64,000 nucleotides of DNA, from the IMG/VR virus record IMGVR_UViG_3300034117_001582, positions 227,868 through 291,867 of that record; one strand, given 5' to 3'. Every line of letters begins with the position of its first letter. The first letter of the stretch is position 1. This document shows positions 1 to 48,152 of the stretch, one piece after another. The position numbers and the translations under genes were made by a program. Source of the DNA: a virus. Under the pieces are notes generated by a model. That model did not search any database. It was not told the origin of the DNA and saw only the letters and a list, made by a program, of their open reading frames with translations.

Positions 1-80
1 TTTTCTTTTTTATTTTCATTAATAACTCGTCTAACAATTCTTGATAAATCGGATTCGGTAAGTCTTATTATTCTTGACAC
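1..80 (-). CDS. Class A leader protein, partial (C-terminus outside window)
   Basis: Read on the minus strand from a GTG at 80, the frame encodes a full class A leader (S-R-I-I-RLTESDL-SRIVRR-V-I-N-E) and then runs off the left edge. The GTG is chosen because it places the leader in the same register as its neighbours, whose second residue is A, K or S. The I-N-E at the leader end is the putative prohead-protease site. The start lies 4 bases after the stop of the upstream leader gene. Nothing of the cargo is visible. Confidence 0.7.
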   Translation of the reverse strand, partial: MSRIIRLTESDLSRIVRRVINENKKE

Positions 81-84
81 AATA

Positions 85-351
85 TTAATTTATTTTTGCA
101 TCGATAATAGCATCCATTAATGCGTCTTCAGCTTTTTTCCAATCGTCATTTGATGGAGTTTCTCCATTCTCAAATGAACCACCATTGTCCTCTACTTGTC
201 TTTTGGCTTCTTCTAGAATATCTGAAAAGCTATTCACTATAACCTCAGAAATTACGGCTAAACAAAACTCAGGGGTTTCAATGTCGCTTTCAGATTCTTC
301 TTTAATAACACGTCTAACAATACGTGATAAATCTCTTTCATTTAATCTCAT
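85..351 (-). CDS. Class A leader protein, acidic cargo of unknown function
   Basis: 88 residues. The leader is a shortened class A form (RLNERDL-SRIVRR) ending in I-K-E at residues 17-19. The remaining ~68 residues are acidic and probably helical, without signal peptide or membrane segment. I do not recognise the cargo. By analogy with T4 internal proteins it could be a small capsid-packaged protein, but only the leader supports that. Confidence 0.75.
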   Translation of the reverse strand: MRLNERDLSRIVRRVIKEESESDIETPEFCLAVISEVIVNSFSDILEEAKRQVEDNGGSFENGETPSNDDWKKAEDALMDAIIDAKIN

Positions 352-426
352 AATACATTTTTATTATAAATACCACATGAACCAAAAAATAAGGATATTC
401 CCATGTAAAAGATTTTTATATAAAAC

Positions 427-840
427 TTATTTTTTTTGTTTGGGTACGCTAATACAGGATATCACTTTACCCTCACATTCCATATACTTCACAACCTCAA
501 CACCTGGAGGTATATTACCTGAAACGGTTGTTGTGGTTGTATTTCCTACCGTTACTGTAGATGAATTACCTTGTGCCATTAACCAGTTTCTTTCGGCATC
601 ATATTGGGCATACCTAAAAGCATCATACCCATAACCTTCACCTTTTATGGTGTTTGGTGGACAAGTAAATGTTTTTTCAACTTCACAACCAAATTTAACT
701 TGTTCAAATTCACCATCTTCCAAACGATTAAATAACTTATCAAAAAATTTACGGACCTTTTTTTTAAATCCACGTTCATTTTGTTCATATAATCCCATTA
801 TATGTTTTTTCTCTTCTTCGCTGATAATAAACTTATTCAT
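427..840 (-). CDS. Class E leader protein of unknown function
   Basis: 137 residues. The N-terminus (IISEEEKKHIMGLYEQN) differs from class A but is the same length and ends in L-Y-E. A basic stretch follows (about residues 24-38), then a cysteine-containing part and a Thr/Val-rich stretch (TVTVGNTTTTTVSG, near 95-108) that looks like a beta strand or linker. A late-type motif lies at 856-863, 15 bases upstream. No family recognised. Confidence 0.75.
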   Translation of the reverse strand: MNKFIISEEEKKHIMGLYEQNERGFKKKVRKFFDKLFNRLEDGEFEQVKFGCEVEKTFTCPPNTIKGEGYGYDAFRYAQYDAERNWLMAQGNSSTVTVGNTTTTTVSGNIPPGVEVVKYMECEGKVISCISVPKQKK

Positions 841-855
841 ATTAATGATTTATAA

Positions 856-863
856 ATAAATAC
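856..863 (-). promoter_or_regulatory. Late-type promoter motif GTATTTAT (representative of the long-spacing class)
   Basis: On the minus strand the bases read GTATTTAT, ending 15 bases before the ATG at 840. The same octamer, oriented with the gene, recurs upstream of most leader genes. It differs from the host -7 box (TAnnTTTG) and recalls the AT-rich late promoter of T4. A promoter role is inferred. Confidence 0.5.
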
Positions 864-873
864 CATATAAAAC

Positions 874-901
874 AAAAAACCCCCTCCGTATAAGGAAAGG
901 G
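874..901 (-). terminator. Intrinsic terminator
   Basis: On the minus strand an 8-bp stem (894-901 with 880-887, two G-U pairs, 6-base loop) is followed by six U. It ends the transcript of the 925-1155 gene just before the next late-type motif. Confidence 0.7.
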
Positions 902-924: not shown

Positions 925-1155
925 TTACATACCATCTCTAAATCGAGATTCAGCGCCACGTCTTACTTTTCTAGACGATGTCATTTCATCAGCAATGTTT
1001 CTTAAAATACTAACGGTTTCTTCGTGACTAGAATTTGAGTTTCTTATAACATCCATAATATCGGAGTATAAAGTATTTTTTTCCATGTCCTCACTAACTA
1101 TACGTTTAACTAATCTTGTTAAATCTCTTTCTGTAAGTCTAATTATTTTTTTCAT
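925..1155 (-). CDS. Class A leader protein, small
   Basis: 76 residues from the ATG at 1155. An upstream in-frame start is possible but would place residues before the conserved MKK-IIRLTERDL leader. The leader ends V-S-E at residues 20-22. The cargo is ~54 residues, helical, with no recognised family. The late-type motif ends only 4 bases before the ATG, so the mRNA may be nearly leaderless. Confidence 0.7.
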   Translation of the reverse strand: MKKIIRLTERDLTRLVKRIVSEDMEKNTLYSDIMDVIRNSNSSHEETVSILRNIADEMTSSRKVRRGAESRFRDGM

Positions 1156-1382: not shown

Positions 1383-1820
1383 TTAATGAGTCGTTCTCTT
1401 TATCTTTTTATTCTTTTTCACATTAAAGTTATATCTTTTATCGTGAGAAGGACCCTTTTCATACCAAAACTCAATACAGTCAATATCAAGACCAGTTTTT
1501 TCATTAACATAAGAAAGAACGGTTTTAGAAAATAGTTTTTTTCTTGTTGCAACTTTTGGTATAAAATTATCTATTTCTTCTCCGGTCTCAGAATTAACAT
1601 ACATATCTTGTTTACACCCCTCACCTTTACCACCAACAGTATAAACTGTAAATATCGCATCACCGTATCCAATCGACTCATTTTCAAACGGATTACTATC
1701 ATTTGGATATATTCTTATCCTATCGGATTCTCTTTCATATGAAAGTTTTGGCCCATACAATACGTCCAACAAATTAAATACAATTTTCTGATACTGTGAT
1801 TTTGTTATGATTACGTCCAT
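1383..1820 (-). CDS. Class B leader-like protein, paralogue of next gene; lacks the L-x-E site
   Basis: 145 residues. Begins with a class B-like leader (VIITKSQYQK), but at the usual cleavage position it reads I-V-F rather than L-x-E. The C-terminal half has YVNEKTGLDIDCIEF, shared with the neighbouring gene (1869-2279) and weakly with the 15323, 16390 and 16846 genes. Basic Lys-rich C-terminus. No catalytic motif seen. Confidence 0.75.
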   Translation of the reverse strand: MDVIITKSQYQKIVFNLLDVLYGPKLSYERESDRIRIYPNDSNPFENESIGYGDAIFTVYTVGGKGEGCKQDMYVNSETGEEIDNFIPKVATRKKLFSKTVLSYVNEKTGLDIDCIEFWYEKGPSHDKRYNFNVKKNKKIKRTTH

Positions 1821-1868
1821 ATAAGATAAATATACAAGAAATAAAAACCACTACGAATATAGGGGGAC

Positions 1869-2279
1869 TTACTTAGTTGTTGTCTTTTTATTTTTTTTAA
1901 CGTTAAACCTATATCTATTTTCGAAATAAGTTTCATCATTATTATATATTTCATAAGGAAAATCAATACAGTCAATATCAAGATTTGTTTTTTCATTAAC
2001 ATAAGAAAGAATGGTTCTAGAAAATAGTTTTTTTCTTAATACCGCTGGTGGTAAATACCTTTCAATTTCCTCAATTGTTTGAGAAAGAACTAACATATCT
2101 CTTTTACATCCTTTAGATTTTCCCTGTTTTGTATAAACTCTAAAAATTTCTTCACCATGATCTGATAAAATCTCAAATATCTCCTCATCTTTTTTAACTG
2201 AAATATTTGGGCCATATAATGTGTCCAACAAATTAAAAACAATTTTCTGATATTGTGATACTGTTATAACAATTTTCAT
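1869..2279 (-). CDS. Class B leader-like protein, paralogue of preceding gene
   Basis: 136 residues, clearly homologous over its length to the 1383-1820 product: the same KIVFNLLD-x-LYGP start, the same LSYVNEKTNLDIDCIDF near the C-terminus and the same Lys-rich tail. It also lacks L-x-E at the leader end. The two genes look like a tandem duplication. A late-type motif (ATATTTAT) lies 5 bases upstream of the ATG. Confidence 0.75.
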   Translation of the reverse strand: MKIVITVSQYQKIVFNLLDTLYGPNISVKKDEEIFEILSDHGEEIFRVYTKQGKSKGCKRDMLVLSQTIEEIERYLPPAVLRKKLFSRTILSYVNEKTNLDIDCIDFPYEIYNNDETYFENRYRFNVKKNKKTTTK

Positions 2280-2358: not shown

Positions 2359-2793
2359 TTAATGACCAGATTGTGAACCTCCATGGTCGTAACGTTCACG
2401 TGGGTCCTGTGAATATTGTGGGTCATACTTACTTGGTTTGCCGTAACTTGTATATTTTGATGTTTGATTGTCATCAACCATTTTCATTGCATCATTAGGA
2501 TTCATACCGTAATCGGCATAAATTAATCCTTTACCTTTTCTTTTTAAATCTCTCAATGATTCTTCATCACCTCTACAATATCTAATGATGATAACCTTGT
2601 TTCCGTCTTCATCTTCTTCAATATCAACATGACCTTTATTATCTTCTTCATCCATATATTCTTCTGATGAGTCACAATCAACGGCTTTTATATCAAATGT
2701 AAAATCCTCATTTGAATTTTCTTCCATTTCCATAATAGTTCTTTTAACAATTCTTGTTAAATCTCTTTCAGTTAATCTTATAATTCTTGCCAT
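2359..2793 (-). CDS. Class A leader protein, acidic cargo
   Basis: 144 residues. Canonical class A leader (RLTERDLTRIVKR) ending I-M-E at 20-22. An acidic stretch follows, rich in Asp and Glu (about 30-65), and the C-terminus is rich in Tyr, Pro, Ser and His and probably disordered. Not recognised. It lies between C-rich terminators, so it is probably its own transcript. Confidence 0.78.
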   Translation of the reverse strand: MARIIRLTERDLTRIVKRTIMEMEENSNEDFTFDIKAVDCDSSEEYMDEEDNKGHVDIEEDEDGNKVIIIRYCRGDEESLRDLKRKGKGLIYADYGMNPNDAMKMVDDNQTSKYTSYGKPSKYDPQYSQDPRERYDHGGSQSGH

Positions 2794-3289: not shown

Positions 3290-3727
3290 TTAGTGATTTT
3301 CTCCTGATAAGTACTTAGGATTTGGATATACTATCTTCTTATTATATAATTTATTCTTATCTTCATCGGATAACTTTGGGGTCTTGTCTTTGGATTTGGA
3401 TGCAAGTAGTGAAACAAGTGGTTCTAATGGTGTTAAAGGCACAGGAGATTTAATGAGCAAACAATTTAATACTTTTGTTACTTCTTTTAGATTATTGTAG
3501 GTCAACATATTTCCAATAGCATTTAGACATTCTTTACTTATTAAATCTCCAGTACCCATAGTACCAGACAAAGTCTTTTTAGGTTTTGTGTCACAAGATT
3601 TTGGTATACTTAGAGTTGTTTTACTAAAACAGCCACCGACCATTGATGTGGTGTCTTCCTCTTCTTTAAGAACTCTTCTTACAATACGTGATAAATCTCT
3701 TTCTGTTAATCTAACTATTCTTGCCAT
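3290..3727 (-). CDS. Class A leader protein of unknown function
   Basis: 145 residues. The class A leader (RLTERDLSRIVRR) ends L-K-E at 20-22. The cargo has a Cys/Gly-containing part (MVGGCFSKTT), a predicted helical middle and a basic C-terminus. No known fold recognised. GTATTTAT (3744-3751) lies 16 bases upstream. Confidence 0.77.
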   Translation of the reverse strand: MARIVRLTERDLSRIVRRVLKEEEDTTSMVGGCFSKTTLSIPKSCDTKPKKTLSGTMGTGDLISKECLNAIGNMLTYNNLKEVTKVLNCLLIKSPVPLTPLEPLVSLLASKSKDKTPKLSDEDKNKLYNKKIVYPNPKYLSGENH

Positions 3728-3807: not shown

Positions 3808-4254
3808 TTATAGATATGCTTTTATATGATTTCTTTTTAACCAACTTCTAACTTGTTCCTCTGTTTGACCTTTTTGTATTTTTGATAATACATGTTTACG
3901 GTCACCATTACCTAGTATTTCACCGGTTTTTGGAACATATTTTATCATGAGATACCCGTCCATTGGTTTTTTTAATTGAATCTCTATGCCGGTTTTAGCA
4001 GTTACGGTAACCTCTTGATATGTTTGTAACTTTGCATACCTATCGGTACCATCGTCTTTACAAGGAATTTCTTTATAATTATTATCAATACAACTGTCAG
4101 GATCTCCATACCTATCGGTATCATTGCCCTTACAAGCTATTCTATTACCTTTAAAATCAATACAGAATCCTTCTTCATCCGCAGTATTTTCATTAATTAT
4201 TCGTTTAACAATTCTTGCTAAATCAGATTCAGTTAATCTTATAATTCTTGCCAT
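3808..4254 (-). CDS. Class A leader protein with two Cys/Asp-rich repeats
   Basis: 148 residues. Class A leader ending I-N-E at 20-22. The cargo holds two similar units, GNDTDRYGDPDSCIDNN and DDGTDRYAKL, each near C-x-G/D motifs, suggesting a small duplicated, possibly metal-binding or disulfide segment. A VTVTAKTG strand and a Lys-rich C-terminal part follow. Function unknown. Confidence 0.76.
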   Translation of the reverse strand: MARIIRLTESDLARIVKRIINENTADEEGFCIDFKGNRIACKGNDTDRYGDPDSCIDNNYKEIPCKDDGTDRYAKLQTYQEVTVTAKTGIEIQLKKPMDGYLMIKYVPKTGEILGNGDRKHVLSKIQKGQTEEQVRSWLKRNHIKAYL

Positions 4255-4349: not shown

Positions 4350-4754
4350 TTATAAATACAATTTTATTATATCAATAGGGTCCAACCCTATTTCACTAAT
4401 ATTAAATAGTTTGTTTAAACGGTCTCCCGTTAATGAGGAAGTTGCTCCAAGTTCATTATCTATTTCTATATCATAAAATATTTCCAAAGCAAATCCACCA
4501 TTGCGTTCGCTATCCACAAATAAAAAAGTTCTATCCTTAAATTTAATAAGATACAAAGGACCAAATGGTTTTACCTGAGACCTAAACCACCAACGGGTTA
4601 CCAAATCACGAACATTAGTTGGCATATCATCATACGTCTCAATAAGTTTAACTTCCAATTCAAAATCAAACTCATATTTCAAAAACTTTTTAAACTTATC
4701 GGTTTTTGATTCAAACAATAAGTTATACTGGTCTTCAGTTATAATGATTTTCAT
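4350..4754 (-). CDS. Class B leader protein of unknown function
   Basis: 134 residues from the ATG at 4754, which starts the conserved class B leader (KIIITEDQYNLLFES). An upstream in-frame ATG would add 11 residues not seen in relatives. L-F-E sits at the usual residues 13-15. The cargo is mixed alpha/beta with several aromatics. ATATTTAT lies 5 bases before the ATG. Confidence 0.75.
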   Translation of the reverse strand: MKIIITEDQYNLLFESKTDKFKKFLKYEFDFELEVKLIETYDDMPTNVRDLVTRWWFRSQVKPFGPLYLIKFKDRTFLFVDSERNGGFALEIFYDIEIDNELGATSSLTGDRLNKLFNISEIGLDPIDIIKLYL

Positions 4755-4775
4755 ATAAGATAAATATAAGGAAAC

Positions 4776-4800
4776 AAAAAACCCCACTGATGAGGTGGGG
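4776..4800 (-). terminator. Intrinsic terminator
   Basis: Perfect 6-bp stem GTGGGG/CCCCAC (4795-4800 with 4782-4787) followed by U-rich sequence on the minus strand. It lies after the 4827-5432 gene. Confidence 0.7.
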
Positions 4801-4826
4801 AATTATTTTACATATTATAAGGATTA

Positions 4827-5432
4827 CTAATCAAGTTCTGAACCCCATGATTTAATTATATTATTAATTGGTTTTTTGTGCCATTTTCTATAAATGTCAA
4901 TACTATCTTTAACATCTTCCATCATATCACCATTAAATCTTTGTTTATATAGGGTTACAACTTCATTATATTTTTTCCAACATTCAGGACAGTTTCCTTC
5001 TTTTTTTAAAGGTTTTGACATATTTAAAAATGCTGCTTCAATAGGGGCTTCCGCATTCCCATCAGTTATAAACTCAGGAGCGGAGTAATCTTTAGGTACC
5101 ATCTTTTTTCCAAATTCTTGTTGAATCAAGACCGCTAATGAGTGACTTTTCTGTAATGATGCGTAAATTAAATCGGCAAGTTCTTTTGTTGTCATTGAAT
5201 TTTCAATATAGTTATAATCAAGTTCTCCACCTTCAATAACGTCCCTATACAAATTTTTAATTTTTTGAATAAAGGATGGTTCATTTTGTTCAGAAATTAA
5301 AGGTTTAACATCTCCCAATGTTGATTCCATTAATTGTTTAAACCTTGAAGTATCAACCGACATACCCCCATTATGTTGTTCACGAATACTATTCTTTTCT
5401 TCGTCTGATAAATTATTTAATAAATGTTTCAT
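4827..5432 (-). CDS. Class E leader protein of unknown function
   Basis: 201 residues. The N-terminus (MKHLLNNLSDEEKNSIREQ) is of the same type as the 427-840 leader (acidic EEK then I-x-E). A further L-M-E lies near residue 36 (QLMEST), so there may be two processing sites. The cargo is mostly helical with a CPEC pair near residue 148. No family recognised. Confidence 0.75.
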   Translation of the reverse strand: MKHLLNNLSDEEKNSIREQHNGGMSVDTSRFKQLMESTLGDVKPLISEQNEPSFIQKIKNLYRDVIEGGELDYNYIENSMTTKELADLIYASLQKSHSLAVLIQQEFGKKMVPKDYSAPEFITDGNAEAPIEAAFLNMSKPLKKEGNCPECWKKYNEVVTLYKQRFNGDMMEDVKDSIDIYRKWHKKPINNIIKSWGSELD

Positions 5433-5518: not shown

Positions 5519-5878
5519 TTAATATTTAGGTTCTCTACCACACGTTAGTTTATAGTAGTAAATTATAAAATCAAGTTTCTCATTAATTAGATATTCCCTT
5601 ATTGATAAATCCAATGAATTACCATCAGATTCAAATTCAGATTTAATCTGTTCATTATGTAAATATAACCTTAAAAACAATCTTTCCATTACATGATTAA
5701 AGTATGTTTTTAGTTTTAAATATTTACAAATTTTCATATCAGACAATATCCCTATTAACAATTCAGTTATATCAATCCCCCTTCTTCTGAAATATGTGTC
5801 ACTTATTGTTGATTCAGATATTACCTGTTTAACGATTCTTGTAATATCTGATTCCGTAAGTCTTATAGTTTTTTTCAT
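5519..5878 (-). CDS. Class A leader protein of unknown function
   Basis: 119 residues from the ATG at 5878. The longer in-frame start would add 12 residues before the conserved leader. Leader RLTESDITRIVKQ ends I-S-E at 20-22. The cargo is helical, rich in Leu, Ile and Tyr, and ends CGREPKY. Function unknown. Confidence 0.75.
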   Translation of the reverse strand: MKKTIRLTESDITRIVKQVISESTISDTYFRRRGIDITELLIGILSDMKICKYLKLKTYFNHVMERLFLRLYLHNEQIKSEFESDGNSLDLSIREYLINEKLDFIIYYYKLTCGREPKY

Positions 5879-5934: not shown

Positions 5935-6309
5935 TTATCTTTTATTCCATTTGGATTTTAATTTGGACTTGTATTTTTTTGGGATGTACTCAAATAAAAA
6001 CTCTTTCACCCTCTTTCTATATTTTTCATCTACCTGTTTAAAATAAAACCCCGAACCTCTAAGTAACTTAAATGTGATTAATCCCCCCATTTGTTCTAAA
6101 AAATGGTCTTCATTTTTAAAACCATTAGTATCTATGTCATCAATAGTTTTATTAACAACATTTAATATGTGGTCATTTAATGAAGTATCTTTTTTATTAT
6201 AGAATCTTTCTAAATCCGATATCTTTTTTATTTCATCACTTTCTTCAGTTATAACTCGTCTAACCATTTCTATAAGTTCTGATTCTGTAAGTCTAATTAC
6301 TTTTTTCAT
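5935..6309 (-). CDS. Class A leader protein of unknown function
   Basis: 124 residues. Leader RLTESELIEMVRR ends I-T-E at 20-22. The cargo is highly charged and helical with a strongly basic C-terminal 25 residues, so nucleic-acid binding is possible. It is the last leader gene before the gene-poor region. Confidence 0.77.
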   Translation of the reverse strand: MKKVIRLTESELIEMVRRVITEESDEIKKISDLERFYNKKDTSLNDHILNVVNKTIDDIDTNGFKNEDHFLEQMGGLITFKLLRGSGFYFKQVDEKYRKRVKEFLFEYIPKKYKSKLKSKWNKR

Positions 6310-6641: not shown

Positions 6642-6673
6642 TTTGGCAGTATCAATAACATTCACTATCTTTG
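6642..6673 (+). promoter_or_regulatory. Host-type (Bacteroidetes) promoter
   Basis: TTTG (6642-6645), a 20-base spacer, then TATCTTTG (6666-6673). This matches the primary sigma consensus TTTG-N19-21-TAnnTTTG. No good ORF starts immediately downstream; a structured segment follows. Confidence 0.65.
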
Positions 6674-6679
6674 TATAGA

Positions 6680-6745
6680 CAATGTGAGAGAGATGTCGGG
6701 CTGAGGGAACAACACCCTTTGGAGTGTAGACTCCAACCTGCCTTT
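6680..6745 (+). ncRNA. Candidate structured RNA
   Basis: Just downstream of a good host-type promoter. It contains a perfect 7-bp hairpin (6719-6725 with 6730-6736, loop GTAG), preceded by a GGG...CCC helix and a GACA...TGTC helix. No ORF and no clear U-tract follow, so the 3' end is uncertain. It could be a small RNA or the 5' leader of the downstream ORF. Confidence 0.4.
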
Positions 6746-6755
6746 ATAATATATA

Positions 6756-6968
6756 ATGGGACTTATAAATAATTATGTTAGACCCCCTTGTCATATGAGA
6801 TATTATACTTATCTTTGTTATATGATTTTTATATACATAACACTTATCTCGGTCATCCTTATTGTTGGGGTATCTATTATGATTCTTAAGTGTTCCCCAT
6901 CTTCTAAGGTGTCCTCGTTTATTCGTAGACATATCATTACTGATGAAGACCTTGAACCATTGGACTAA
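6756..6968 (+). CDS. Small membrane protein (start uncertain)
   Basis: 70 residues if translated from 6756. A host-type promoter lies inside this frame (6788-6817), so the real start may be the in-frame ATG at 6822, giving 48 residues. Either form has one strong transmembrane helix (IFIYITLISVILIVGVSI) and a charged tail ending DEDLEPLD. It is one of few plus-strand genes here, converging with the 6965-7282 gene and overlapping it by 4 bases. Confidence 0.45.
   Translation: MGLINNYVRPPCHMRYYTYLCYMIFIYITLISVILIVGVSIMILKCSPSSKVSSFIRRHIITDEDLEPLD
6788..6817 (+). promoter_or_regulatory. Host-type promoter for the small membrane ORF
   Basis: TTG (6788-6790), a 19-base spacer, then TATCTTTG (6810-6817), followed 4 bases later by ATG (6822). 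Transcription would begin at or next to this ATG, implying leaderless or internally started translation. Confidence 0.55.
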
Positions 6969-7282
6969 TCCCCATAGAACTCTTCCATCTTTTGTATTCC
7001 CATGTTTACTATTGTAGTTCTTATATCATGGTAGTCATCCTCAGATAAATTATAGTATTGATTTAAAAACTGTAATACATCTGACATGTGGGCATCAACT
7101 ATTACAAATTGTCTTTTACTTACAATTGGTTTCTTACTCCATCCCTTCTTAGCAAATTCAAAATAGATTACACCATCATCGGTTAATCCCTCCTTATGTT
7201 TGAATATACATTTAATCCCCTTACTATCCTCAGTAATCATTGGGGAGTATTGTTCTATGATAAATTTTTCTATTACGTTCAT
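6965..7282 (-). CDS. Hypothetical protein
   Basis: 105 residues, mixed alpha/beta, acidic C-terminus. The N-terminus (MNVIEKFIIEQYSPMITED) is not one of the main leaders but has I-x-E triplets at positions where a leader would end. A late-type motif lies about 20 bases upstream of the ATG. The only minus-strand gene in the 6.3-8.2 kb region. Confidence 0.65.
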   Translation of the reverse strand: MNVIEKFIIEQYSPMITEDSKGIKCIFKHKEGLTDDGVIYFEFAKKGWSKKPIVSKRQFVIVDAHMSDVLQFLNQYYNLSEDDYHDIRTTIVNMGIQKMEEFYGD

Positions 7283-8236
7283 AACTATACATTAAGGTTA
7301 ATAAATATATTCCATAATGTGAATAACAAATGGGGATGACAGTATGTCAGGAGGGAATTGTTGATAACTATTTATGTTAATTTATTTGATTTTGTCAAAA
7401 TGTCAGTCAGCGAACACGAACGGGACAATCCCTTTTCCCACTTTATCCCACATCTTCTTACCACTATTTACCACCACAATTCCCTCTGTTGCTATAGTGA
7501 GACTAATAAATCCCCTCTATCAGTACCGCCATAAAGGTTTTTTTAGGTATACAGATTTTCCAGCTAAAAATTGTATTAATACTGTAGAGGCGGCCGAGAC
7601 GTAGTCTTATAGTTCTTCCAACGTATAGGGAACCGAAAATATCCCCTTCAACGTGTCATTAAGTCATATCACCAACGTTTAAGACCTCTATAGTTTAGTG
7701 GTAATATGTGGGACAATTAGTCATATCATATAAATCAGGTTTCACCTGACCACAGTGATATATAACATCAGTCCCTCTAATAAGTTCTATGTATATTATT
7801 CCCTTATACATAACGAAGTTATTCTATATATGAATTACTTTAAAGAACACCATATACCACATGTGAATGTCTACCACTATTATGGGGAGAGGTCGAAGAC
7901 CGATTAAATGGGGGGAACTATCAGGTAAACTTTCTATACCTGAGAACCTCATCATGTAAAAGAACTATACATTATCTTATCGTAATGTGGATTACTGTAA
8001 TGACCATTACATTACTGTTTAAGATATGTCCCATTAATTACCACATATCCTTTATACAAAGGTAACGATTACTCTTGTTTTTTATACGAAGGTAAAGATT
8101 ACTCTCGTTAAGAGTATAGGATAAATTTATGAGGTGAATTCCGTAGTGATAACGGAGGACTATGAACCGAATGAATTAATCGTATAGTCTAACTTACTTT
8201 CCCTATAATGTAGAGGATTAGTTATTTTATACATTA
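7283..8236. other. Gene-poor region with scattered short hairpins
   Basis: No believable gene in ~950 bases. Short inverted repeats include 7735-7749 (TCAGGT/ACCTGA), 7891-7901 (GGTC-gaa-GACC), 7921-7943 (TCAGGTA/TACCTGA, 9-base loop), 7997-8010 (GTAATG/CATTAC) and 8140-8156 (TCCGT/ACGGA). There is a 30-bp tandem repeat at 8051-8110. No tRNA could be folded. Possible roles are small RNAs, a regulatory or origin region, or decayed genes. Confidence 0.45.
8051..8110. repeat. Tandem repeat, 2 x 30 bp
   Basis: Two adjacent 30-base units (8051-8080 and 8081-8110) identical at 26 positions. Each contains a GATTACTC core, and the first contains, on the minus strand, TACCTTTG, which resembles a host -7 box. 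Confidence 0.8.
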
Positions 8237-9358
8237 TTATGCGTAGTTAACGTCTCTTGTTGTATCTATTTTTGCAAACTCCTGAGAGTAATCGTATATC
8301 TTATTTAAATCCACCTCTATATATGAATCATACTCATCTTTTACTGTTTTTGTTGCGGTATTAAAAAGTGTTTTAACGTCATGTGCGTCAGTATCATTAA
8401 TAAACAATTTAAAATTTAATAACGTAATATCTTCTGTACTTTTGAATGGTATCTTCATTAAATTATTCTCGTAAACCACATTAAAAACATTATCACCACT
8501 TTTAATCTTAACATTATCTTTTATTAATTTAATAAAATTATCTAATGTTCCAAAATCATCTACCCCTAAAAGTCTTTTTAAATTTTGAACTCTTGATGAA
8601 TTTTCAGTAGCAGAGTTACCGTAATCGGTATTAGTATTAACGGAAATTTGGGGGCCTTTAGCGTCTTCTGGTAAATAATCCACACCCTTACTGATAAAAT
8701 ACCCGCTAAGGCAGTGATTAAACTCGTGTACTAAAATTAACATAATAGAGTTTTTATTAACGTCACTTGGAAATACATTTTTAACACAAAAATTCAACTT
8801 AGAATATTCACCTTTAATAACAAACCCACCTGTAGAATCGTCACATGTCAAACTAAAAACTAAATTTACACTATTTAAAAAGTTTTTTAATTCATTTTTT
8901 TGTTTGTTATCCCATGCCGTTATCACGCCTTTTAATTTTACCTCCTCTTCTTTTACCATATCATTAAAAAACTCAAGGGTTTCTTTTGCTCTTTGTAATT
9001 CAGAAATATTGGCATTTTTTAACCCATTAACTTTGTTTTGCCAATTAATTACTTGTTTTTTATATTTTTCTAAATCTTCTGTATTGTATTTAGAACCTTT
9101 TCCTATTTTTTCTTGAACTTTTTTATTGAACCACTCGCTATCTATGTATTTTAACATGTAAGTTTTTGCTTCTGTAAAAAATGGTTTAACAAAATTTTCA
9201 ACCTCTGTTATTTTTTCTTGTTCGGTTTTGGCTTTGTCTTCCCAATAGGCTCGAAGGGTATTTAAATTAATGTTTTTTAATTTACAAGCATCATCCACTT
9301 CCTCTTTAATTACACCCATTATTGATTGTATTCTTCTTATGTTTTCGTGTAAATTCAT
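8237..9358 (-). CDS. Class C leader protein, HExxH metallopeptidase-like
   Basis: 373 residues. Class C leader (MNLHENIRRI) ending I-K-E at 17-19. A long helical region (about 30-160) is followed by ILVHEFNHC, with HEFNH at 211-215, and a downstream conserved ENSSR (Glu 252), consistent with a zinc-metallopeptidase HExxH...E site. Paralogue of the 11853-12920 gene, sharing the leader, the AWD/WGD-NKQKxELKxF region, the active-site region and the C-terminal DVNYA. Substrate unknown; as packaged cargo it could cleave host proteins on entry. Confidence 0.8.
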   Translation of the reverse strand: MNLHENIRRIQSIMGVIKEEVDDACKLKNINLNTLRAYWEDKAKTEQEKITEVENFVKPFFTEAKTYMLKYIDSEWFNKKVQEKIGKGSKYNTEDLEKYKKQVINWQNKVNGLKNANISELQRAKETLEFFNDMVKEEEVKLKGVITAWDNKQKNELKNFLNSVNLVFSLTCDDSTGGFVIKGEYSKLNFCVKNVFPSDVNKNSIMLILVHEFNHCLSGYFISKGVDYLPEDAKGPQISVNTNTDYGNSATENSSRVQNLKRLLGVDDFGTLDNFIKLIKDNVKIKSGDNVFNVVYENNLMKIPFKSTEDITLLNFKLFINDTDAHDVKTLFNTATKTVKDEYDSYIEVDLNKIYDYSQEFAKIDTTRDVNYA

Positions 9359-9418: not shown

Positions 9419-10120
9419 TTATGGTACTTGTTGTAACCCTAACTCAAAGTAGTCATACTCGTTGTTGTAAAATCTTGGATTGTTTACAAATATATTATAC
9501 ATTGGAAGTAAAATGTTATGTAACTCTTCTTTCCATTCGTCGTAGTCAGTTTCTGTCATATCACTTATAAAATATTTAGGTTTTACTTTTTCTAATGTTC
9601 GTTCTAAATTGTCTTGAAGATTAGTTTTTCTTAGGTTTGTTATATTTCCATAAACATATACTTCTACTTCAGGGTCATTTGTTGTGACATGCGTGGTTTC
9701 ATAATCAAAGTCAAACTCATAACGATAAAACACCCCCGAAAAATCAATATGTTTAATTTGTTTTCCACTAACATTAAGATGTGTTCTATCTTCTTTTGAT
9801 ACATAACAATTGTTTCTGATATTTTTCATCCATGAAGCAAAATGCTTATATTTGTTAAAATCAGTGTTTGTCATATCACAAAATGATTTAAACTCATCAT
9901 GTAAAACTTGAGTTAGTATTGTTTTTGAATATGAATAATCATTTGGGTTTTTAACTTTCCATTTTATTTGTAACCCTGTCCATTTTGGAACTAAAAAAAG
10001 TCCTTCGAATTCTATTGGGTTTTCATTTAAATAATTATAATAGTAATACTTTACAGGATTTTCTTTAGGGTTGGTTCTTTCTTCCCTTAATACTCTTCTT
10101 ATGTTCTCTTGTAGGTTCAT
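9419..10120 (-). CDS. Class C leader protein of unknown function
   Basis: 233 residues from the ATG at 10120. The class C leader MNLQENIRRVLREE ends L-R-E at 11-13. An in-frame start 7 codons upstream is less likely because it precedes the leader. The cargo is rich in Tyr, Asn and aromatics, mixed alpha/beta. The start overlaps the stop of the 10117-10848 gene, suggesting coupled translation. Confidence 0.75.
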   Translation of the reverse strand: MNLQENIRRVLREERTNPKENPVKYYYYNYLNENPIEFEGLFLVPKWTGLQIKWKVKNPNDYSYSKTILTQVLHDEFKSFCDMTNTDFNKYKHFASWMKNIRNNCYVSKEDRTHLNVSGKQIKHIDFSGVFYRYEFDFDYETTHVTTNDPEVEVYVYGNITNLRKTNLQDNLERTLEKVKPKYFISDMTETDYDEWKEELHNILLPMYNIFVNNPRFYNNEYDYFELGLQQVP

Positions 10121-10848
10121 TCTGATAAATCTATAAACCAAGCAGATATTGGCACGTTTAGTTGGTTGGCGATGGTTGATCGTTTGTGTCCACCAATTAA
10201 TGTATATTCATTTCCTTCTCTTCCGCCTGTTGGTAATTTCATTACAAATGGTGCTGGAAGTTCTCTATGTTTTTCATTTCTTATTTTTTCTATATTATCA
10301 ACATAACCTTTGTGACGTTGTTTAACTTCTCCATCATCGCCTGTCATTTGTTTAATTAAACCTGATGATGTGGTATCTTTAAACATTCCTGGAAACTCTT
10401 TTGAGAATCTACCCATATAAAATGTGTTATTTATCATATCATTATCCCATTCTTCCATTCTTCCTTTATTAAACAAATTAAACCCTTCCATTTGTGATTG
10501 TCCATCTTTTAATAAAACTTGTCTAAAATCCTCCCAATCATCCATTAAATCAGATATTTCTTTATCTAATAGAATGTCTTTAATTTCTTGTTCATCATCC
10601 ACTTCACTTCCTTTTGAATGTTCGGCAATCATTTTGAATGTATGAGGAAATATGGAATACATTAAATCATAATTTTGTGGGTGAAAGAATTCATCTTTAC
10701 TGAACCTCATATTATTTCCCAATAGTTCATCTAACTCTTGGTTAAAGTATTCTACTGTTGGTTCTAACCAAGTGATAGAATATGGATTTGATATCTCATT
10801 TAACCCCATCATTGATTTAATTCTTTGTATGTTTTCTTGTAGGTTCAT
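10117..10848 (-). CDS. Class C leader protein with ParB-like motif
   Basis: 243 residues. Leader MNLQENIQRIKSMMG ends L-N-E at 16-18. Near the C-terminus it has a ParB/Srx-type segment: a basic-residue loop then LIGGHKRSTIANQL, close to the G-H-R-R-x-x-A signature of ParB N-terminal domains. ParB-like folds bind or cleave nucleic acid or hydrolyse nucleotides. The middle (about 40-180) is helical and not recognised. Confidence 0.72.
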   Translation of the reverse strand: MNLQENIQRIKSMMGLNEISNPYSITWLEPTVEYFNQELDELLGNNMRFSKDEFFHPQNYDLMYSIFPHTFKMIAEHSKGSEVDDEQEIKDILLDKEISDLMDDWEDFRQVLLKDGQSQMEGFNLFNKGRMEEWDNDMINNTFYMGRFSKEFPGMFKDTTSSGLIKQMTGDDGEVKQRHKGYVDNIEKIRNEKHRELPAPFVMKLPTGGREGNEYTLIGGHKRSTIANQLNVPISAWFIDLSE

Positions 10849-11111: not shown

Positions 11112-11429
11112 TTACTTTGTCTTCTTAACACAATTAGGATATCGTTTACCAAACATTGTCTTCATACCTTTTTGAGTATATCCTGCCCAACATCTCTCTG
11201 TAAGTTCACCTTCTTTCATCTCACTTTGTTTACGTTTACCTTGACAGTGAGCTCTTTGACTAAATCCTTTTGGGTTATTGCAGTCGATTGATTTTTTATA
11301 CTTTTCTGACCACTTTTCTGTAACATCCCCTTCTCCCATCTCTTCGTCATTTTTTATTGTATTTTCATTGATTACTCTTTTAACTAACAAAATAAGGTCT
11401 GATTCCGTTAACCGTATTACTTTTTTCAT
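11112..11429 (-). CDS. Class A leader protein with Cys-containing phage motifs
   Basis: 105 residues. Leader RLTESDLILLVKR ends I-N-E at 20-22. The rest is two short cysteine modules: IDCNNPKGFSQRAHCQGK and, at the C-terminus, ERCWAGYTQKGMKTMFGK followed by YPNC. I have seen very similar modules in predicted proteins of marine phages, where their function is also unknown. Four cysteines and several His suggest metal binding or disulfides. Confidence 0.75.
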   Translation of the reverse strand: MKKVIRLTESDLILLVKRVINENTIKNDEEMGEGDVTEKWSEKYKKSIDCNNPKGFSQRAHCQGKRKQSEMKEGELTERCWAGYTQKGMKTMFGKRYPNCVKKTK

Positions 11430-11430: not shown

Positions 11431-11838
11431 TTATCTATTGTATGGCCTAAACCTTGATGGGTTTGATTTTATTGCTGACTTTGGGAATTTTAATCCAACA
11501 CCCTGTTGTCTTGCGTTCTTTAATGTTCTTGCGTATTCGGTTAGTTCTTCATTTCCCATATCATCAATAGCCTTTACTAATTTATGGCATTTCTCTGATA
11601 CCTCACCCTTTTCGTGATCAGTTATTGATAATTTTACTTTGTTGTAATTTATTTTAATATCAGGATGATGATTTTGTGATTCGGCAATCTTCGCAACTTT
11701 ATTAACAAATTCCATTGATTCATTAAAATCTTTGAATTTAAAAGTTCTTTCTAATTTTTGCTCTGAATCACTCCAACCTTTGGATTCATTCATATTTATC
11801 ATTTCCTGTATTCTTCTTATGTTCTCTTGTAGGTTCAT
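11431..11838 (-). CDS. Class C leader plus pterin-4a-carbinolamine dehydratase
   Basis: 135 residues. Leader MNLQENIRRIQEMINMNE, then a complete PCD/DCoH domain (about 20-105): GW...L.R.F.F.DF, the catalytic HHPD at 57-60, a V-x-L-x-I-x-x-x-D-H strand, and a second His at 75. A ~30-residue basic tail ends the protein. PCDs dehydrate 4a-hydroxytetrahydropterin or act as dimerisation cofactors. Attached to a capsid-type leader, it may be delivered by the virion. Confidence 0.82.
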   Translation of the reverse strand: MNLQENIRRIQEMINMNESKGWSDSEQKLERTFKFKDFNESMEFVNKVAKIAESQNHHPDIKINYNKVKLSITDHEKGEVSEKCHKLVKAIDDMGNEELTEYARTLKNARQQGVGLKFPKSAIKSNPSRFRPYNR

Positions 11839-14763: not shown

Positions 14764-15273
14764 TTATTTTTGACACCCAGGACTTTTGGGGTTCATTTTT
14801 TTACAATGGGTTCCTGTATAATAATCCCAACCTTTTTCAGAGTGACCAATTGATGTTTTTTCAAAAATATTTGGTTCAAAAAAAGTATTTAATTTATTAA
14901 TAATTTCATTATATACTTTTATAACTTCGCCATCCCATTTTTTATTTTTTTCAGCATCAAATTTTACACTTTCCATACTTGATTTAAAATAACCAACTAA
15001 ACCAACTAATTTAGGAACGTCATCAATAGTTTCACCTTCTTTTAAATTTTCATATTTTTCTTTATCGTAGTATTTACCATCAACTTTAACATAAAAATTT
15101 AACATACGTTCCACATTGTCTTTTAACTCTAAAATTGCGCTTATATGTGTTTTTTCATTATTATCACTTTTTAAGTTTAATTTATTTTTTATATATTCTA
15201 AACTGTTAGTGTTTTCCTCAGATAAGGTTATCATCATTGATTTAATCCTTTGTATGTTTTCTTGTAGGTTCAT
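14764..15273 (-). CDS. Class C leader protein of unknown function
   Basis: 169 residues. Leader MNLQENIQRIKSMM ends L-S-E at 17-19. The cargo is helical and Lys/Glu-rich and ends in GTHCKKMNPKSPGCQK with two cysteines. Not recognised. Confidence 0.75.
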   Translation of the reverse strand: MNLQENIQRIKSMMITLSEENTNSLEYIKNKLNLKSDNNEKTHISAILELKDNVERMLNFYVKVDGKYYDKEKYENLKEGETIDDVPKLVGLVGYFKSSMESVKFDAEKNKKWDGEVIKVYNEIINKLNTFFEPNIFEKTSIGHSEKGWDYYTGTHCKKMNPKSPGCQK

Positions 15274-28176: not shown

Positions 28177-28469
28177 CTTTTCTTTTTAACTTTATTAAAA
28201 CCGTTTCTAATTTTATTGTTAAATTGTCCCGACATTAACATTAAAAAATCGTGTTTTGTAAATTTAATATCTGGATTATTATCTTCAAAACTCCATTCAG
28301 TTCTATTCGTTACCCACCCTTCGTAAACACCAAAATTATCAGGTTTATTACCTGGACCACTATTCATTATATCCTTATTTAATTCTTTAATAGAAGTATC
28401 AAGAATTTGTTCTAATTCACTTATCCTTCTTAATAATGCTATTTGAGATTCTGTTATTATTATTTTCAT
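28173..28469 (-). CDS. Class B leader protein, small
   Basis: 98 residues from the ATG at 28469 (an adjacent GTG is also possible). The class B leader KIIITESQIALLRRISE has its x-S-E at 16-18, three residues later than usual. The cargo is charged with a NRTEWSFEDNNPDI segment and a basic C-terminus. Function unknown. Confidence 0.72.
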   Translation of the reverse strand: MKIIITESQIALLRRISELEQILDTSIKELNKDIMNSGPGNKPDNFGVYEGWVTNRTEWSFEDNNPDIKFTKHDFLMLMSGQFNNKIRNGFNKVKKKR

Positions 28470-39062: not shown

Positions 39063-39092
39063 CAAAGATAATACTTTTTTACAATTCTACAA
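39063..39092 (-). promoter_or_regulatory. Host-type promoter driving non-coding RNA
   Basis: Minus strand TTG (39090-39092), 19-base spacer, TATCTTTG (39063-39070). It lies at the very end of the 39079-39582 gene and points into the non-coding interval. Confidence 0.68.
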
Positions 39093-39582
39093 CTATATAA
39101 TCATTTTTACAAAAATTTTCTTCTAACCTTTCTTTTTTAGTTTTTACTTTATTAAGCAAAAAATTACCATCTTTCGAATAAGCGGAGGTAATTATTGATA
39201 GTTCATTTCCGTCCTTTTGGAGTATAAATTCAACAAAATCAAAATATTCTGAATTATTATTATTCTTAATTTTTTTTATAAAAATAATTCTATTGCTGCA
39301 CGGTTTATTTAATTTGAAACTTTCTACAATTTTTTGAATGTTATTTTTAATTGTTGGTGCCAAAATTGAGTCTGTCGCACCTATTCGATAGTCATATCCC
39401 TTTTTATCAAGTATGTCAATGTGTTTTAATAGTGAGTCATCACCATGTCTTTCAAACCACTGATGATATGTAGATATAATCTTATACATCATCTTATCAT
39501 AGACTTCAATACCTTTTTGCTTAGGAAATTTTTTTTCCTCCAAAAGATATTCTCTGAAAATTCTTTCTATTAATCTTTTCAT
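39079..39582 (-). CDS. Possible class D leader protein
   Basis: 167 residues. The start (MKRLIERIFREYLLEEKK) is class D-like with L-L-E at 13-15. The cargo has a FEWH-like segment (YHQWFERHGDDSLLKHIDIL), a basic middle (RIIFIKKIKNNNN) and a helical C-terminus. Unknown. Confidence 0.65.
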   Translation of the reverse strand: MKRLIERIFREYLLEEKKFPKQKGIEVYDKMMYKIISTYHQWFERHGDDSLLKHIDILDKKGYDYRIGATDSILAPTIKNNIQKIVESFKLNKPCSNRIIFIKKIKNNNNSEYFDFVEFILQKDGNELSIITSAYSKDGNFLLNKVKTKKERLEENFCKNDYIVVEL

Positions 39583-39650: not shown

Positions 39651-40232
39651 TTATTTTCTATCCATTCTTGATTTGTCGGCGGCCTTGTAGTGAAAACCGG
39701 TTTTATACTTATCATATCCACCTCTTTTAAAGAACGCAGAGTCTTTTAAAGTCACACCCAACAAAGAAACAATACCAGCAACAAGAGCGGCTCCACCACC
39801 AATAAACATCGCGGCCGGCACAATTCCTAAACCAGCTATCAAACTAGTATTTTGAACAATTTTATCTAAAATTCCTCTTAATTTCATTTCAGTTTCACTC
39901 ATTCCGTATTGTTTTTCAAAATCCTCATACATCATTTCGTCAACTTCTGAATAATTAGCATCTTCCTCTTCCATTTGTGATACCACATCCATCAACATGT
40001 CTTCTAATTCATCTTTACCTTTACGTTTCATTAAATCACTAAGGAATCTCATTTCAGATGGTGAAATAGTATGTTGTAGTTCTTCTTTAGCGGTTTCTAA
40101 ATCCATTTTAGAAAAATCCGATTCCCCTTCCATTTCTTGGGAGTCTGCCATCCATTGTTCTTCATCTTCTTTGATAATTCTTTTTACCAAATTAATAAGT
40201 TCGGATTCTGTTAGTCTTATAGTTCTTTTCAT
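39651..40232 (-). CDS. Class A leader membrane protein
   Basis: 193 residues. Leader RLTESELINLVKR ends I-K-E at 20-22. An acidic helical part (25-115) is followed by a hydrophobic Gly/Ala-rich segment at about 133-163 (IAGLGIVPAAMFIGGGAA then LVAGIVSLLG), and a basic tail. If injected it could insert in the host inner membrane or form a channel for DNA entry; that is inference. Confidence 0.76.
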   Translation of the reverse strand: MKRTIRLTESELINLVKRIIKEDEEQWMADSQEMEGESDFSKMDLETAKEELQHTISPSEMRFLSDLMKRKGKDELEDMLMDVVSQMEEEDANYSEVDEMMYEDFEKQYGMSETEMKLRGILDKIVQNTSLIAGLGIVPAAMFIGGGAALVAGIVSLLGVTLKDSAFFKRGGYDKYKTGFHYKAADKSRMDRK

Positions 40233-45226: not shown

Positions 45227-46471
45227 CTATTTTTTTTTGAATTTAAATTCGGTTTCTATTTTTCTTTTACCGTATTTTTTTTCCATTAGTTTTTGGTGTA
45301 GTTCCCAATTGATAATTGATTCGCTGACAGGTTGATTATCATCTTTTGCCATTGCATATAATTTTGATATTTTCTTTAACATTTTAGTTGATATATAATT
45401 AAATTTTTCACATTCAGCCTCAAAGAATCCCGTTGGGTCATTTTGAAATTTAATAAGGTAATTTAAAAACTTAGTTCTTAAGTTATCCATTTTTTCTTTA
45501 TTGTCATCCTCCATAAAAGATGGGACATTTTTAGACATTAGTTTTAAAAAATTTCTTATCTCATCAGCTTTATCTGAAATCATATCATTAAAAATCCCCA
45601 TTCTAAGATTTACTAAGTTAACATAAACAAGATTTAGAACCTCATCAATTTTTTCATTTTCCGACATATTTTCAGGATCAGTACCAATGTGTTCAAGTAA
45701 AGCGTCCACCCTATTCATTTGTTCTTTCATTCCTTCAATTAAATTATTAAATGTAAAATTTTTAATTTCAATAAATTCTTTATAAACACTGTTATTTTCT
45801 AAAAATTCTTTGAATTGTGATTTGGTAATATTTTTACTTTTAAGTTCTGAAGCGACCTCTGTTGTTCTAACCAAATTTTCAGCAATTGAGGTATAATACA
45901 TATATCTAAAGAATTTATGATCAATTACCGGAATACCAAAAGTAGACATTCTTTGTGTTGCAGTATATTCGGCATCTCTACCAACTAAATCTAATTCTTT
46001 TGCTTGTTTATCATATTTGTGTTTTAATTCGTGAGCAATAGCCGATAAATGTTTTACCCTTTCTTTCATTATCGTATCATATAACTCATGTGGTTCCCAA
46101 TTTTCTGAAACACCAAATGTTATTTCAATCTCAGCGGTTGTGGATGGTTCAATTCTTTTCATCATCACTTCTCTATCAAAGTTAAATGATTGACCCATAC
46201 CCATTGACATAATCAAAACATTACCATCATAACCATCAAGTTCTTCCACATTAACCGTTAACTCATAACCATCAATTACGATTTTTTTCTTATCTCCCAA
46301 TTCAAAATCTAAATCACCACTAAACGCATATGTGTTTTCTTTTTCATCTATTGATTTAACATCATTTACAACAATATCAAAAACTTCTTCAGCAGCAGCT
46401 AAAATAGAATCAGGAACCCCTAACGCTTCGTTAATAAATTTAAGTTGTGATTCTGTTATAATAATTTTCAT
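45227..46471 (-). CDS. Class B leader protein, HExxH metallopeptidase-like
   Basis: 414 residues. Leader KIIITESQLKFINEA ends I-N-E at 13-15. After a beta-rich region, AIAHELKHKYD (HELKH at 147-151) and a downstream SIAENLVRTTE (Glu 198) form a likely zinc site. A long helical C-terminus (240-400) follows. This is a different subfamily from the 8237 and 11853 proteins. A late-type motif lies upstream. Confidence 0.78.
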   Translation of the reverse strand: MKIIITESQLKFINEALGVPDSILAAAEEVFDIVVNDVKSIDEKENTYAFSGDLDFELGDKKKIVIDGYELTVNVEELDGYDGNVLIMSMGMGQSFNFDREVMMKRIEPSTTAEIEITFGVSENWEPHELYDTIMKERVKHLSAIAHELKHKYDKQAKELDLVGRDAEYTATQRMSTFGIPVIDHKFFRYMYYTSIAENLVRTTEVASELKSKNITKSQFKEFLENNSVYKEFIEIKNFTFNNLIEGMKEQMNRVDALLEHIGTDPENMSENEKIDEVLNLVYVNLVNLRMGIFNDMISDKADEIRNFLKLMSKNVPSFMEDDNKEKMDNLRTKFLNYLIKFQNDPTGFFEAECEKFNYISTKMLKKISKLYAMAKDDNQPVSESIINWELHQKLMEKKYGKRKIETEFKFKKK

Positions 46472-46497
46472 ATTTATAAATATATTGAAGTTATGGT

Positions 46498-47151
46498 TTA
46501 ACCCACAACTCCATCTATATCATCTAAGTGGTGGTCATTCACTATTTCTGAACGAACTTCACGGCGGTCCATCATATGAACAATCTCAGTTAATTTATAA
46601 GGTTGGTAGTTATTACCATCAACACCAACATCCAATCGTTTCCCATTACCCCATTTTTTATTTGTAGGTAAGTGAACGTGTCCGTGAAGTTGGATTGCCC
46701 CTTTTGATAGTTGATTCCAACTACATAATGGATAGTGAGACAATACAAAGTCAGCACCACCAATATTTACTTCCAAATAATTTTGAATAGATAAAAACCT
46801 ATCATGGATATTTTCTCGATTATTTTTAATGTGGTGGTCGTGGTTTCCTAATACAAGGTGAATGTTTTTACAAACCAAACGATCCAAGAATTGCCCTATT
46901 TTATCAAACCCACCAAAAGAGAAATCACCCAAGTGAATCAACGTATCGTCAGGTCCAATTTTTGAATTGATGTTATCAACAATAACACTATTCATATCCT
47001 CAATACTATTAAAGTCTCTTGTCGATTCTATAGGGGTTTTACCGTCTTTGGTTCTCCAATTGGTAACTCCGCGACAAATGTTTTTGTGCGAATAGTGAGT
47101 GTCTGAAGTAATCCAAACAACCCCACTAGTTAATATTTTATCAAATTTCAT
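46498..47151 (-). CDS. Calcineurin-like metallophosphoesterase
   Basis: 217 residues. ITSDTHYSHKN, HLGDFSF, LGNHDHH, and a C-terminal LHGHVH complete the metallophosphoesterase set. No leader. Next to a P-loop kinase, it may act on nucleic-acid ends or nucleotides; substrate unknown. Confidence 0.83.
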   Translation of the reverse strand: MKFDKILTSGVVWITSDTHYSHKNICRGVTNWRTKDGKTPIESTRDFNSIEDMNSVIVDNINSKIGPDDTLIHLGDFSFGGFDKIGQFLDRLVCKNIHLVLGNHDHHIKNNRENIHDRFLSIQNYLEVNIGGADFVLSHYPLCSWNQLSKGAIQLHGHVHLPTNKKWGNGKRLDVGVDGNNYQPYKLTEIVHMMDRREVRSEIVNDHHLDDIDGVVG

Positions 47152-47154
47152 TTC

Positions 47155-47547
47155 TTATATTTTTATCTCAAAACGGTTTTTCATTTGTTCTAATTTATCG
47201 TCAGGAACTCCATGTTTGTTTGTTCCTCCGTGTCTATTTTCCACAATAATAGAGGTCACATAATAACCATACTTAATTGCCAATTCATAATATGGTTGAA
47301 GTTCCCATTCTTGTGTGAATGTGTTTGACACTGCAATTTTTGGTGTGTTTGACTCCATTGCATATCCAACATATTGTTGACACTCTTTATGAGCATCTTT
47401 TATTTCAGATGCAATAAAATTGTAGTTACCATCATTATCATAAAAATAATGGTCTGCCTCAAAAACCCAATTTGGGGCTAATTGTTTTGCTAAAGTTGTC
47501 TTACCACTTCCTGGTATTCCTCTAACTAAATATATCATTTTTTCCAT
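47155..47547 (-). CDS. P-loop kinase, polynucleotide-kinase-like
   Basis: 130 residues. Walker A RGIPGSGKTTLAK near the N-terminus, then FEADHYFYDNDGNY and a short basic lid region (NRHGGTNKHG). This is an AAA_33-type small kinase, as in nucleic acid 5'-kinases. It overlaps the divergent intergenic region and is adjacent to a phosphoesterase. Probably part of the RNA-repair set with the ligase. Confidence 0.75.
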   Translation of the reverse strand: MEKMIYLVRGIPGSGKTTLAKQLAPNWVFEADHYFYDNDGNYNFIASEIKDAHKECQQYVGYAMESNTPKIAVSNTFTQEWELQPYYELAIKYGYYVTSIIVENRHGGTNKHGVPDDKLEQMKNRFEIKI

Positions 47548-47574
47548 AGTACAAATATAATAAACAATTTGATA

Positions 47575-47582
47575 ATATTTAT
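47575..47582 (+). promoter_or_regulatory. Late-type promoter motif (plus strand)
   Basis: ATATTTAT on the plus strand, 6 bases before the ATG of the plus-strand class B leader gene. The motif keeps gene orientation on the opposite strand, which argues it is a directional signal. Confidence 0.5.
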
Positions 47583-47588
47583 CAATAT

Positions 47589-48152
47589 ATGAAAATAATA
47601 ATTACAGAAGAACAATACAAAACAATTTTAACCGAAAACATATTAAAGGATATTTTAAAAGACTTTAATATTACTTCCGGAATATTATTTACGTTTGGTT
47701 CCGGAATGGCCGCACTTATGGGACCAGTGGATAGGTTATTAAACAACTCAGGATTTTCATTAAGTGAAAAAGAAATATTACTATTATTAATCACATCAAT
47801 TGCAATTATCATTAAGGACTCCGAATCTAATATATTATTAGATGAGGTTAAAGAAAAAGGATTGACTGAGGCCCTTAATGGTGTTGGTGAATTTTTAATT
47901 AACACTAAAAAACTAATTAATAATATATCAAGTAAAGTGATTGGTGTTACTTATTCTCTATTAGATATTTTAGGTTTTGCATTATTATTAAACCCAACGA
48001 TGAATATCGTAAACGACATAATATCTGATGAAAATATAACCTCATCAGACACAAATAGATTATTATCAGGTGCCGCATTTGCAACGGTAGTTTACGGATT
48101 AAAAAGCGTAATGTCTAAAATTAAAAATAAAATAACCCCAATCGAAGATTAA
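47589..48152 (+). CDS. Class B leader membrane protein, plus strand
   Basis: 187 residues. Leader KIIITEEQYKTILTEN has L-T-E at 14-16. Several hydrophobic helices follow (about 25-45, 58-80, 120-140 and 155-175). It is the only leader gene on the plus strand, showing that the leader does not depend on genome position. Might insert into the host membrane. Convergent with the 48169 gene. Confidence 0.75.
   Translation: MKIIITEEQYKTILTENILKDILKDFNITSGILFTFGSGMAALMGPVDRLLNNSGFSLSEKEILLLLITSIAIIIKDSESNILLDEVKEKGLTEALNGVGEFLINTKKLINNISSKVIGVTYSLLDILGFALLLNPTMNIVNDIISDENITSSDTNRLLSGAAFATVVYGLKSVMSKIKNKITPIED

Follow-up and report, generated by a model that had tools for sequence, protein, structure and literature searches.

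Positions 227,868-291,867 of the 291,867-base virus record IMGVR_UViG_3300034117_001582 (a stretch of 64,000 bases, hereafter the window) encode many unrelated proteins that begin with one of a few short N-terminal leaders. These leaders are very probably capsid-targeting propeptides, so that the cargo proteins bearing them would be cut by a prohead protease of the S77 family, packed into the phage head and delivered together with the DNA. We read this as a greatly expanded T4-like capsid-targeting and internal-protein (IP) system with new leader families. With less confidence, we lean towards the view that a single virion holds about 60 different proteins and delivers them via this portable, swappable zip code. 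An initial annotation of the window had already proposed a large set of capsid-packaged cargo, and this reading is supported at the sequence level by an S77 protease, a capsid prodomain ending in LINE/A (a slash marks the cut), leader swaps at the cut and a common upstream element.

In the proposed mechanism, about 60 proteins would be made late in infection with a basic, amphipathic N-terminal leader of roughly 11-22 residues, which would bring them into the prohead core. There, a T4 gp21-type (S77) prohead protease would cut after [LIVM]-x-E; the mature proteins, freed within the head, would be packed there alongside the DNA and enter the next host with it. The several leader families would be interchangeable and traded between bodies at the cleavage junction.

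Leader families and body diversity

Genes were called record-wide, and leaders were re-defined by patterns omitting the Glu of the proposed site. These patterns gave 64 matches in the whole record, two of which are probably spurious (4423-5142 and 108617-108814). The whole phage genome thus holds about 62 leader-bearing genes, 39 of them at window positions 85-48152 (Table 1) and others in the genome near 10-26 kb, 53 kb, 150 kb, 170-172 kb and 190-228 kb. The figure of about forty in the initial annotation is therefore right for the window; the large leader set is real, but it is genome-wide and common to a large clade and not a property of this phage alone. The leader classes described there were found again, while a sixth type had been overlooked, class F (LSxEEKxxIxxxH, e.g. 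window 4827-5432). At genome 192520-201228, very large proteins (534-1031 amino acids) with class C-like leaders were observed.

A triplet [LIVM]xE ending at residues 10-24 was present in 59 of the 64 leader matches compared to 66 of 229 other genes of at least 90 amino acids. Alignment of the 39 unrelated window proteins gave the consensus MK...ILxE with nothing conserved afterwards. Counting one protein per body cluster, 121 unrelated bodies of this phage and its relatives begin with the class A leader (MKKIIRLTESDLTRIVKRVIxE), and Glu22 is kept in 117 of them; the information drops from 3.4 bits in the Glu column to 1.1 in the following column and to about 0 beyond it. Within this genome, the class A Glu occupies the same column in 13/13 cases, normally residue 22, and the following columns are unconserved. 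The placing of the triplet at residues 20-22 in class A was borne out, as was that at residues 9-11 in class D. The codons of the class A leader vary synonymously, so selection acts at the protein level.

Using BLAST, 274 leader proteins were grouped into 192 body clusters, of which 150 are singletons and 8 are of mixed leader class. In the family of window 45227-46471, the A(L/V)GVP bodies are preceded by class B leaders ending in ...FINE or ...YITE, by a longer ...KSLISE or by the class D leader MRELIRQVLRE, and the alignment among family members begins exactly at the predicted cut. Leaders are also borne by two proteins of the capsid locus (genome 149774-150232 and 150229-150948). The former, located beside the capsid gene and with the body RYMFFSNLEQM, occurs with 48 different N-termini, of which 41 are D-type and 7 are A- or B-type; [LIVM]xE is present in all 48. 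The swapping itself is seen in the sequences, and we take it that one leader family can stand in for another and that bodies have changed leaders at the putative cleavage junction.

Relatives were sought at the DNA level with a pattern encoding RLTESDLx(R/S)xVxx, in which the Glu of the site was left free. It occurred in at least 118 stretches in viral contigs, many of them on contigs of 250-297 kb. Among approximately 85,000 bacterial and archaeal species (one genome each), three contigs matched, none N-terminally; these matches, all internal to one Janibacter protein family, were rejected as chance. By this search the leader pattern is phage-specific. In annotated phage records no leader was found with a 22-residue query, which is insensitive. 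The relatives G010 and G001 have 38 and 19 leaders, respectively, and the cultured Flavobacterium phage immuto has a single one. S77 is present on 12 of the 17 leader-bearing contigs that reach at least 96 kb; the other five also have no clear capsid gene, one of them (G015) having a short weak match only. The longest of these five, at 274 kb, was rejected as a counterexample, since it begins 44 bases from the capsid-adjacent gene and its capsid module is thus cut off.

Table 1. Leader-bearing genes of the window, with the predicted cut marked by a slash
Window position	Strand	Leader class	Leader end and predicted cut	Remarks
85-351	-	A	MRLNERDLSRIVRRVIKE/ES	
925-1155	-	A	...RIVSE/DM	
1383-1820	-	B-like	MDVIITKSQYQKIVFNLL	no [LIVM]xE site found
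1869-2279	-	B-like		paralogue of 1383-1820; no site near leader end
2359-2793	-	A	...KRTIME/ME	
3290-3727	-	A	...RRVLKE/EE	
3808-4254	-	A	...KRIINE/NT	
4350-4754	-	B	MKIIITEDQYNLLFE/SK	
4827-5432	-	F	LSDEEKNSIREQH; candidate cut LISE/QNE	
5519-5878	-	A	...KQVISE/ST	
5935-6309	-	A	...RRVITE/ES	
8237-9358	-	C	MNLHENIRRIQSIMGVIKE/EV	HEFNH in body; paralogue of 11853-12920
9419-10120	-	C	MNLQENIRRVLRE/ER	
10117-10848	-	C	MNLQENIQRIKSMMGLNE/IS	
11112-11429	-	A	...KRVINE/NT	
11431-11838	-	C	...MINMNE/SKGW	pterin-4a-carbinolamine dehydratase domain (PF01329, E=5.5e-24; PDB matches)
11853-12920	-	C	...GVIKE/EV	HEFDH in body
14764-15273	-	C	...MMITLSE/EN	
15323-16393	-	C	MTLQESIKKILRE/SV	
16390-16845	-	C	MNQQESIRKILRE/ET	
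16846-18441	-	C	MNIKKNIKKVLKE/ET	HETAH in body
18443-18766	-	D	MRKLIRHILKE/ET	
18766-19209	-	D	MRGLIKHILNE/EV	
19212-20273	-	D	MRELIKHILKE/NR	
20276-20932	-	D	(MM)MENRNLIRHILKE/EV	
20916-21347	-	D	MKEIIRKVLKE/DT	
21344-21988	-	D	MKDLIRKVLKE/YV	
22326-23093	-	C	MKTILQEELNRLRQLMLSE/EM	
24855-26213	-	A	...RRILNE/DV	no relative in phage or plasmid records
27601-28176	-	B	MKIILTESQYKNLFE/SK	
28173-28469	-	B	ambiguous (LLRRISE)	
28469-28876	-	B	MKIIITERQYKMLFE/SN	
28873-29985	-	B	MKIIITESQYQNLTE/KK	
29982-30905	-	B	MRIIITESQFNLLME/GT	phage lysozyme (PF00959, E=1.3e-11) and LysM (PF01476, E=7.6e-17)
33479-34396	-	C	MKGLNEDIIRIKQLMLVE/SD	
39079-39582	-	D-like	MKRLIERIFRE/YL	
39651-40232	-	A	...KRIIKE/DE	
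45227-46471	-	B	MKIIITESQLKFINE/ALGVP	invariant HELxH; other leaders in relatives, joined at E/A(L/V)GVP
47589-48152	+	B	MKIIITEEQYKTILTE/NI	

Prohead protease, head module and upstream element

The absence of a prohead protease would have refuted the proposal by the terms of the initial annotation, and a gp21-type gene is present at genome 154799-155509 (Peptidase_S77, PF03420, E=5.5e-26, 88.5 bits versus a curated cut-off of 27). Its product shares 33% identity with T4 gp21 across 172 aligned residues; the ELNHP and SSRG blocks, which we take to be the surroundings of the catalytic His and Ser, are both aligned. In the module, the protease gene lies between a T4-type portal gene (157328-159139) and that of a Gp23 major capsid protein (151022-152830), and the portal and protease genes are separated by a bS21 gene (PF01165) of opposite orientation (genome 156088-156282, +). 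A further opposite-strand block, at genome 126693-143373 (+), seems to hold many glycosyltransferase, nucleotide-sugar and methyltransferase-like genes.

The capsid prodomain ends in LINE/A (residues 57-60), which is invariant in 80/80 sequences of relatives and parallels FLTE/A in T4 gp23. The prodomain holds five [LI]xE triplets compared to 1.3 in shuffled sequences, and the mature part has no excess. The invariant LINE/A is a pointer that the S77 protease probably cuts after L/I-x-E.

For the promoter count, genes with an upstream gap of at least 40 bases were used and TATTTAT was sought within 60 bases of the start. The element was present at 28 of 29 leader genes, 9 of 17 structural-region genes and 30 of 98 others (p=6e-11, leader versus other), while a host-like TAnnTTTG was found at 0/29 leader genes versus 23/98 others. 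It also stands upstream of the protease, core, bS21 and capsid-adjacent genes. In two relatives TATTTAT was enriched as well (17/19 versus 53/142 and 6/6 versus 59/150), and on other contigs it preceded 115/153 class A genes versus 226/506. A search upstream of genes for the T4-type TATAAATA gave nothing, TATTTAT being the enriched element. We infer that TATTTAT is a putative late promoter element. It is often accompanied by a T tract about 13 bases upstream, e.g. before window 925-1155, 3290-3727 and 24855-26213. A sigma-70 family factor is encoded by the phage at genome 41958-42773.

Cargo and alternative explanations

Nearly all cargo bodies are orphans, mostly without a match in Pfam, PHROGs and PADLOC. 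The pterin-4a-carbinolamine dehydratase domain of window 11431-11838 starts at the predicted cut, and weak DHH and peptidoglycan-binding matches were obtained among leader proteins of relatives. HExxH occurs in four leader proteins of three families (window 45227-46471, 8237-9358, 11853-12920 and 16846-18441) versus once in 75,890 residues of other open reading frames, and it is invariant in the 45227-46471 family. Structure prediction for the HELxH family (alignment A3) gave a predicted local distance difference test score (pLDDT) of 65, that of the leader (residues 1-16) staying under 50, and a Foldseek search of the PDB returned nothing with E<0.39; for the paralogous pair 8237-9358/11853-12920 (A4), the prediction was useless (pLDDT 35). 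A zincin fold was thus unconfirmed by structure prediction, and by their motif the HExxH cargo proteins are possible candidates for packaged metallopeptidases.

Several results weigh against the reading of the leaders as cleaved capsid-targeting propeptides. The cargo matched neither the PADLOC models nor the described T4 internal proteins. The GH24 lysozyme with LysM (29982-30905) looks like an endolysin, which is odd for a head-packaged protein. In immuto, the sole leader-like N-terminus is that of its own prohead core protein. In the candidate core protein, [LI]xE is not enriched (10 versus 8.3 in shuffled sequences). Also, the placing of the class B triplet at residues 13-15 was overstated: it is true for 8 of 17 class B leaders in this genome, with two more at residues 14-16, and across the clade only 11 of 28 distinct bodies have the Glu in the site column. 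The two site-less class B-like genes at window 1383-2279 also speak against uniform class B cleavage. Save for this class B irregularity and the un-enriched core protein, the sequence evidence agrees with a T4-like capsid-targeting system in which targeting, cleavage, packaging and ejection of the leader proteins would follow the proposed course.

Side by side with these results, some related genes were observed. The awkwardness of the leader-bearing lysozyme is eased by another cell-wall hydrolase gene, which has no leader, at 6651-7487 (PG_binding and GH19), and LysM proteins behind class B or A leaders also occur in the relatives L157 and L143. The one genome of G010 contains at least seven dispersed paralogues of class B (KLIKENISLKEKLLGLIKKVGF; L359-L373). 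In G001, five small class B-like proteins that lack the [LIVM]xE site are encoded in tandem (L374, 1186-3547), and the genes at window 1383-2279 are similar.

One alternative is that the leaders target the prohead or another virion part and remain attached, or are removed in some classes only, with [LIVM]xE as the C-terminal part of a binding helix. Class B and some class F and C leaders, often without a site at the expected place, would fit this, as would a helix conserved throughout and not merely at its end. However, conservation stops at the Glu across families of differing length and sequence, the swaps join there and the capsid prodomain ends in the same triplet; we consider this explanation unlikely. 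Even less probable is an address within the infected cell (membrane, replication site, ribosome or host complex) instead of the head. Basic amphipathic helices can serve many targets, and the cargo includes the lysozyme with LysM and a metabolic enzyme domain, but such an address would leave the L/I-x-E site and the protease unexplained, two capsid-locus proteins bear leaders, and the element common to the protease and core genes fits late expression.

Hardly any weight is given to conservation at the nucleic-acid level, e.g. as a translation-initiation signal for phage-selective ribosomes with the phage bS21: the leaders do stand at gene starts and bS21 lies between portal and protease, but the synonymous codon variation in class A contradicts it, and families differing in sequence and length end alike at the protein level. 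Ordinary paralogous families sharing an N-terminal domain by descent, without special function, are just as improbable: some true paralogues exist, such as 8237-9358 and 11853-12920, but the 274 leader proteins form 192 body clusters, 150 with a single member, and unrelated leaders occur on homologous bodies.

Comparison with known systems

The bS21-encoding freshwater Bacteroidetes phages (PMC9723584) also have bS21 on the opposite strand in a T4-like module near TerL, portal, protease and major capsid protein, and a genome near 300 kb, and this phage is very likely of the same kind as those jumbo phages. In the available part of that report, leaders or packaged cargo are not described. The ejection proteins of phiKZ, SPN3US and 201phi2-1, processed by gp175/gp245-type proteases, are comparable in that a jumbo phage carries many head proteins with x-x-E cuts. 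There, the propeptides are mostly longer than 100 residues, the sites are S/A/G-x-E or A-x-E, and about 8-19 proteins are processed (PMC5694885, PMC9026906). This phage, in contrast, has short leaders with [LIVM]xE and a T4-type capsid module. DarA and Hdf of P1 and the phage polyvalent proteins are head-packaged and delivered with the DNA, and they are large or few; to our knowledge, they share no portable leader family.

If one virion does deliver about 60 such proteins, the leaders alone would reveal which effectors and anti-defence proteins, possible HExxH metallopeptidases among them, are injected by a whole lineage of abundant uncultured Bacteroidetes jumbo phages. The set would be among the largest of delivered proteins proposed for a phage. 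In T4, the IP signal sequence led to injected inhibitors of host restriction (PMC12373910). The same reasoning would yield several hundred orphan candidates in an abundant uncultured clade, new packaging tags and a defined set of proteins to be tested as injected effectors. In the leader swaps, evolution would have used the cleavage junction as the border at which signal and cargo recombine, which would amount to a natural modular system for protein packaging. In the literature searched, neither a set of this size nor these leader families were described; most subscription journals and bioRxiv were outside its scope, so that the absence of a description of the leaders is weak evidence of novelty.

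The closest likeness is to T4, where gp21 cuts after L/I-X-E, IP propeptides have 10-19 residues, and their targeting and processing residues are separable (PMC9026906). As in this phage, IPI-III and Alt of T4 have a short N-terminal propeptide ending in L/I-x-E on unrelated, fast-changing bodies, together with an S77 protease and a similar cut in the gp23 prodomain. More than one propeptide is in use in T4 itself, MKTYQEFIAE and MAKINELLRE: gp24 starts with MAKINELLRE/S besides the capsid-targeting sequence (CTS) of the IPs, and therefore T4 too has several propeptides for one protease. In its form, this gp24 start resembles class D as well as MIERTIKNILKE/ATSTSG of the capsid-adjacent gene, whereas the IP CTS MKTYQEFIAE has no similarity to the leaders here beyond the end motif. 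The class A and B leader families are new, the bodies are unrelated to known IPs, and while T4 has 3 IPs and for its relatives at least 10 are reported (PMC12373910), there are about 62 candidates here. The leader system would thus work like that of T4, but by their sequence the leaders do not fall into the T4 CTS family.

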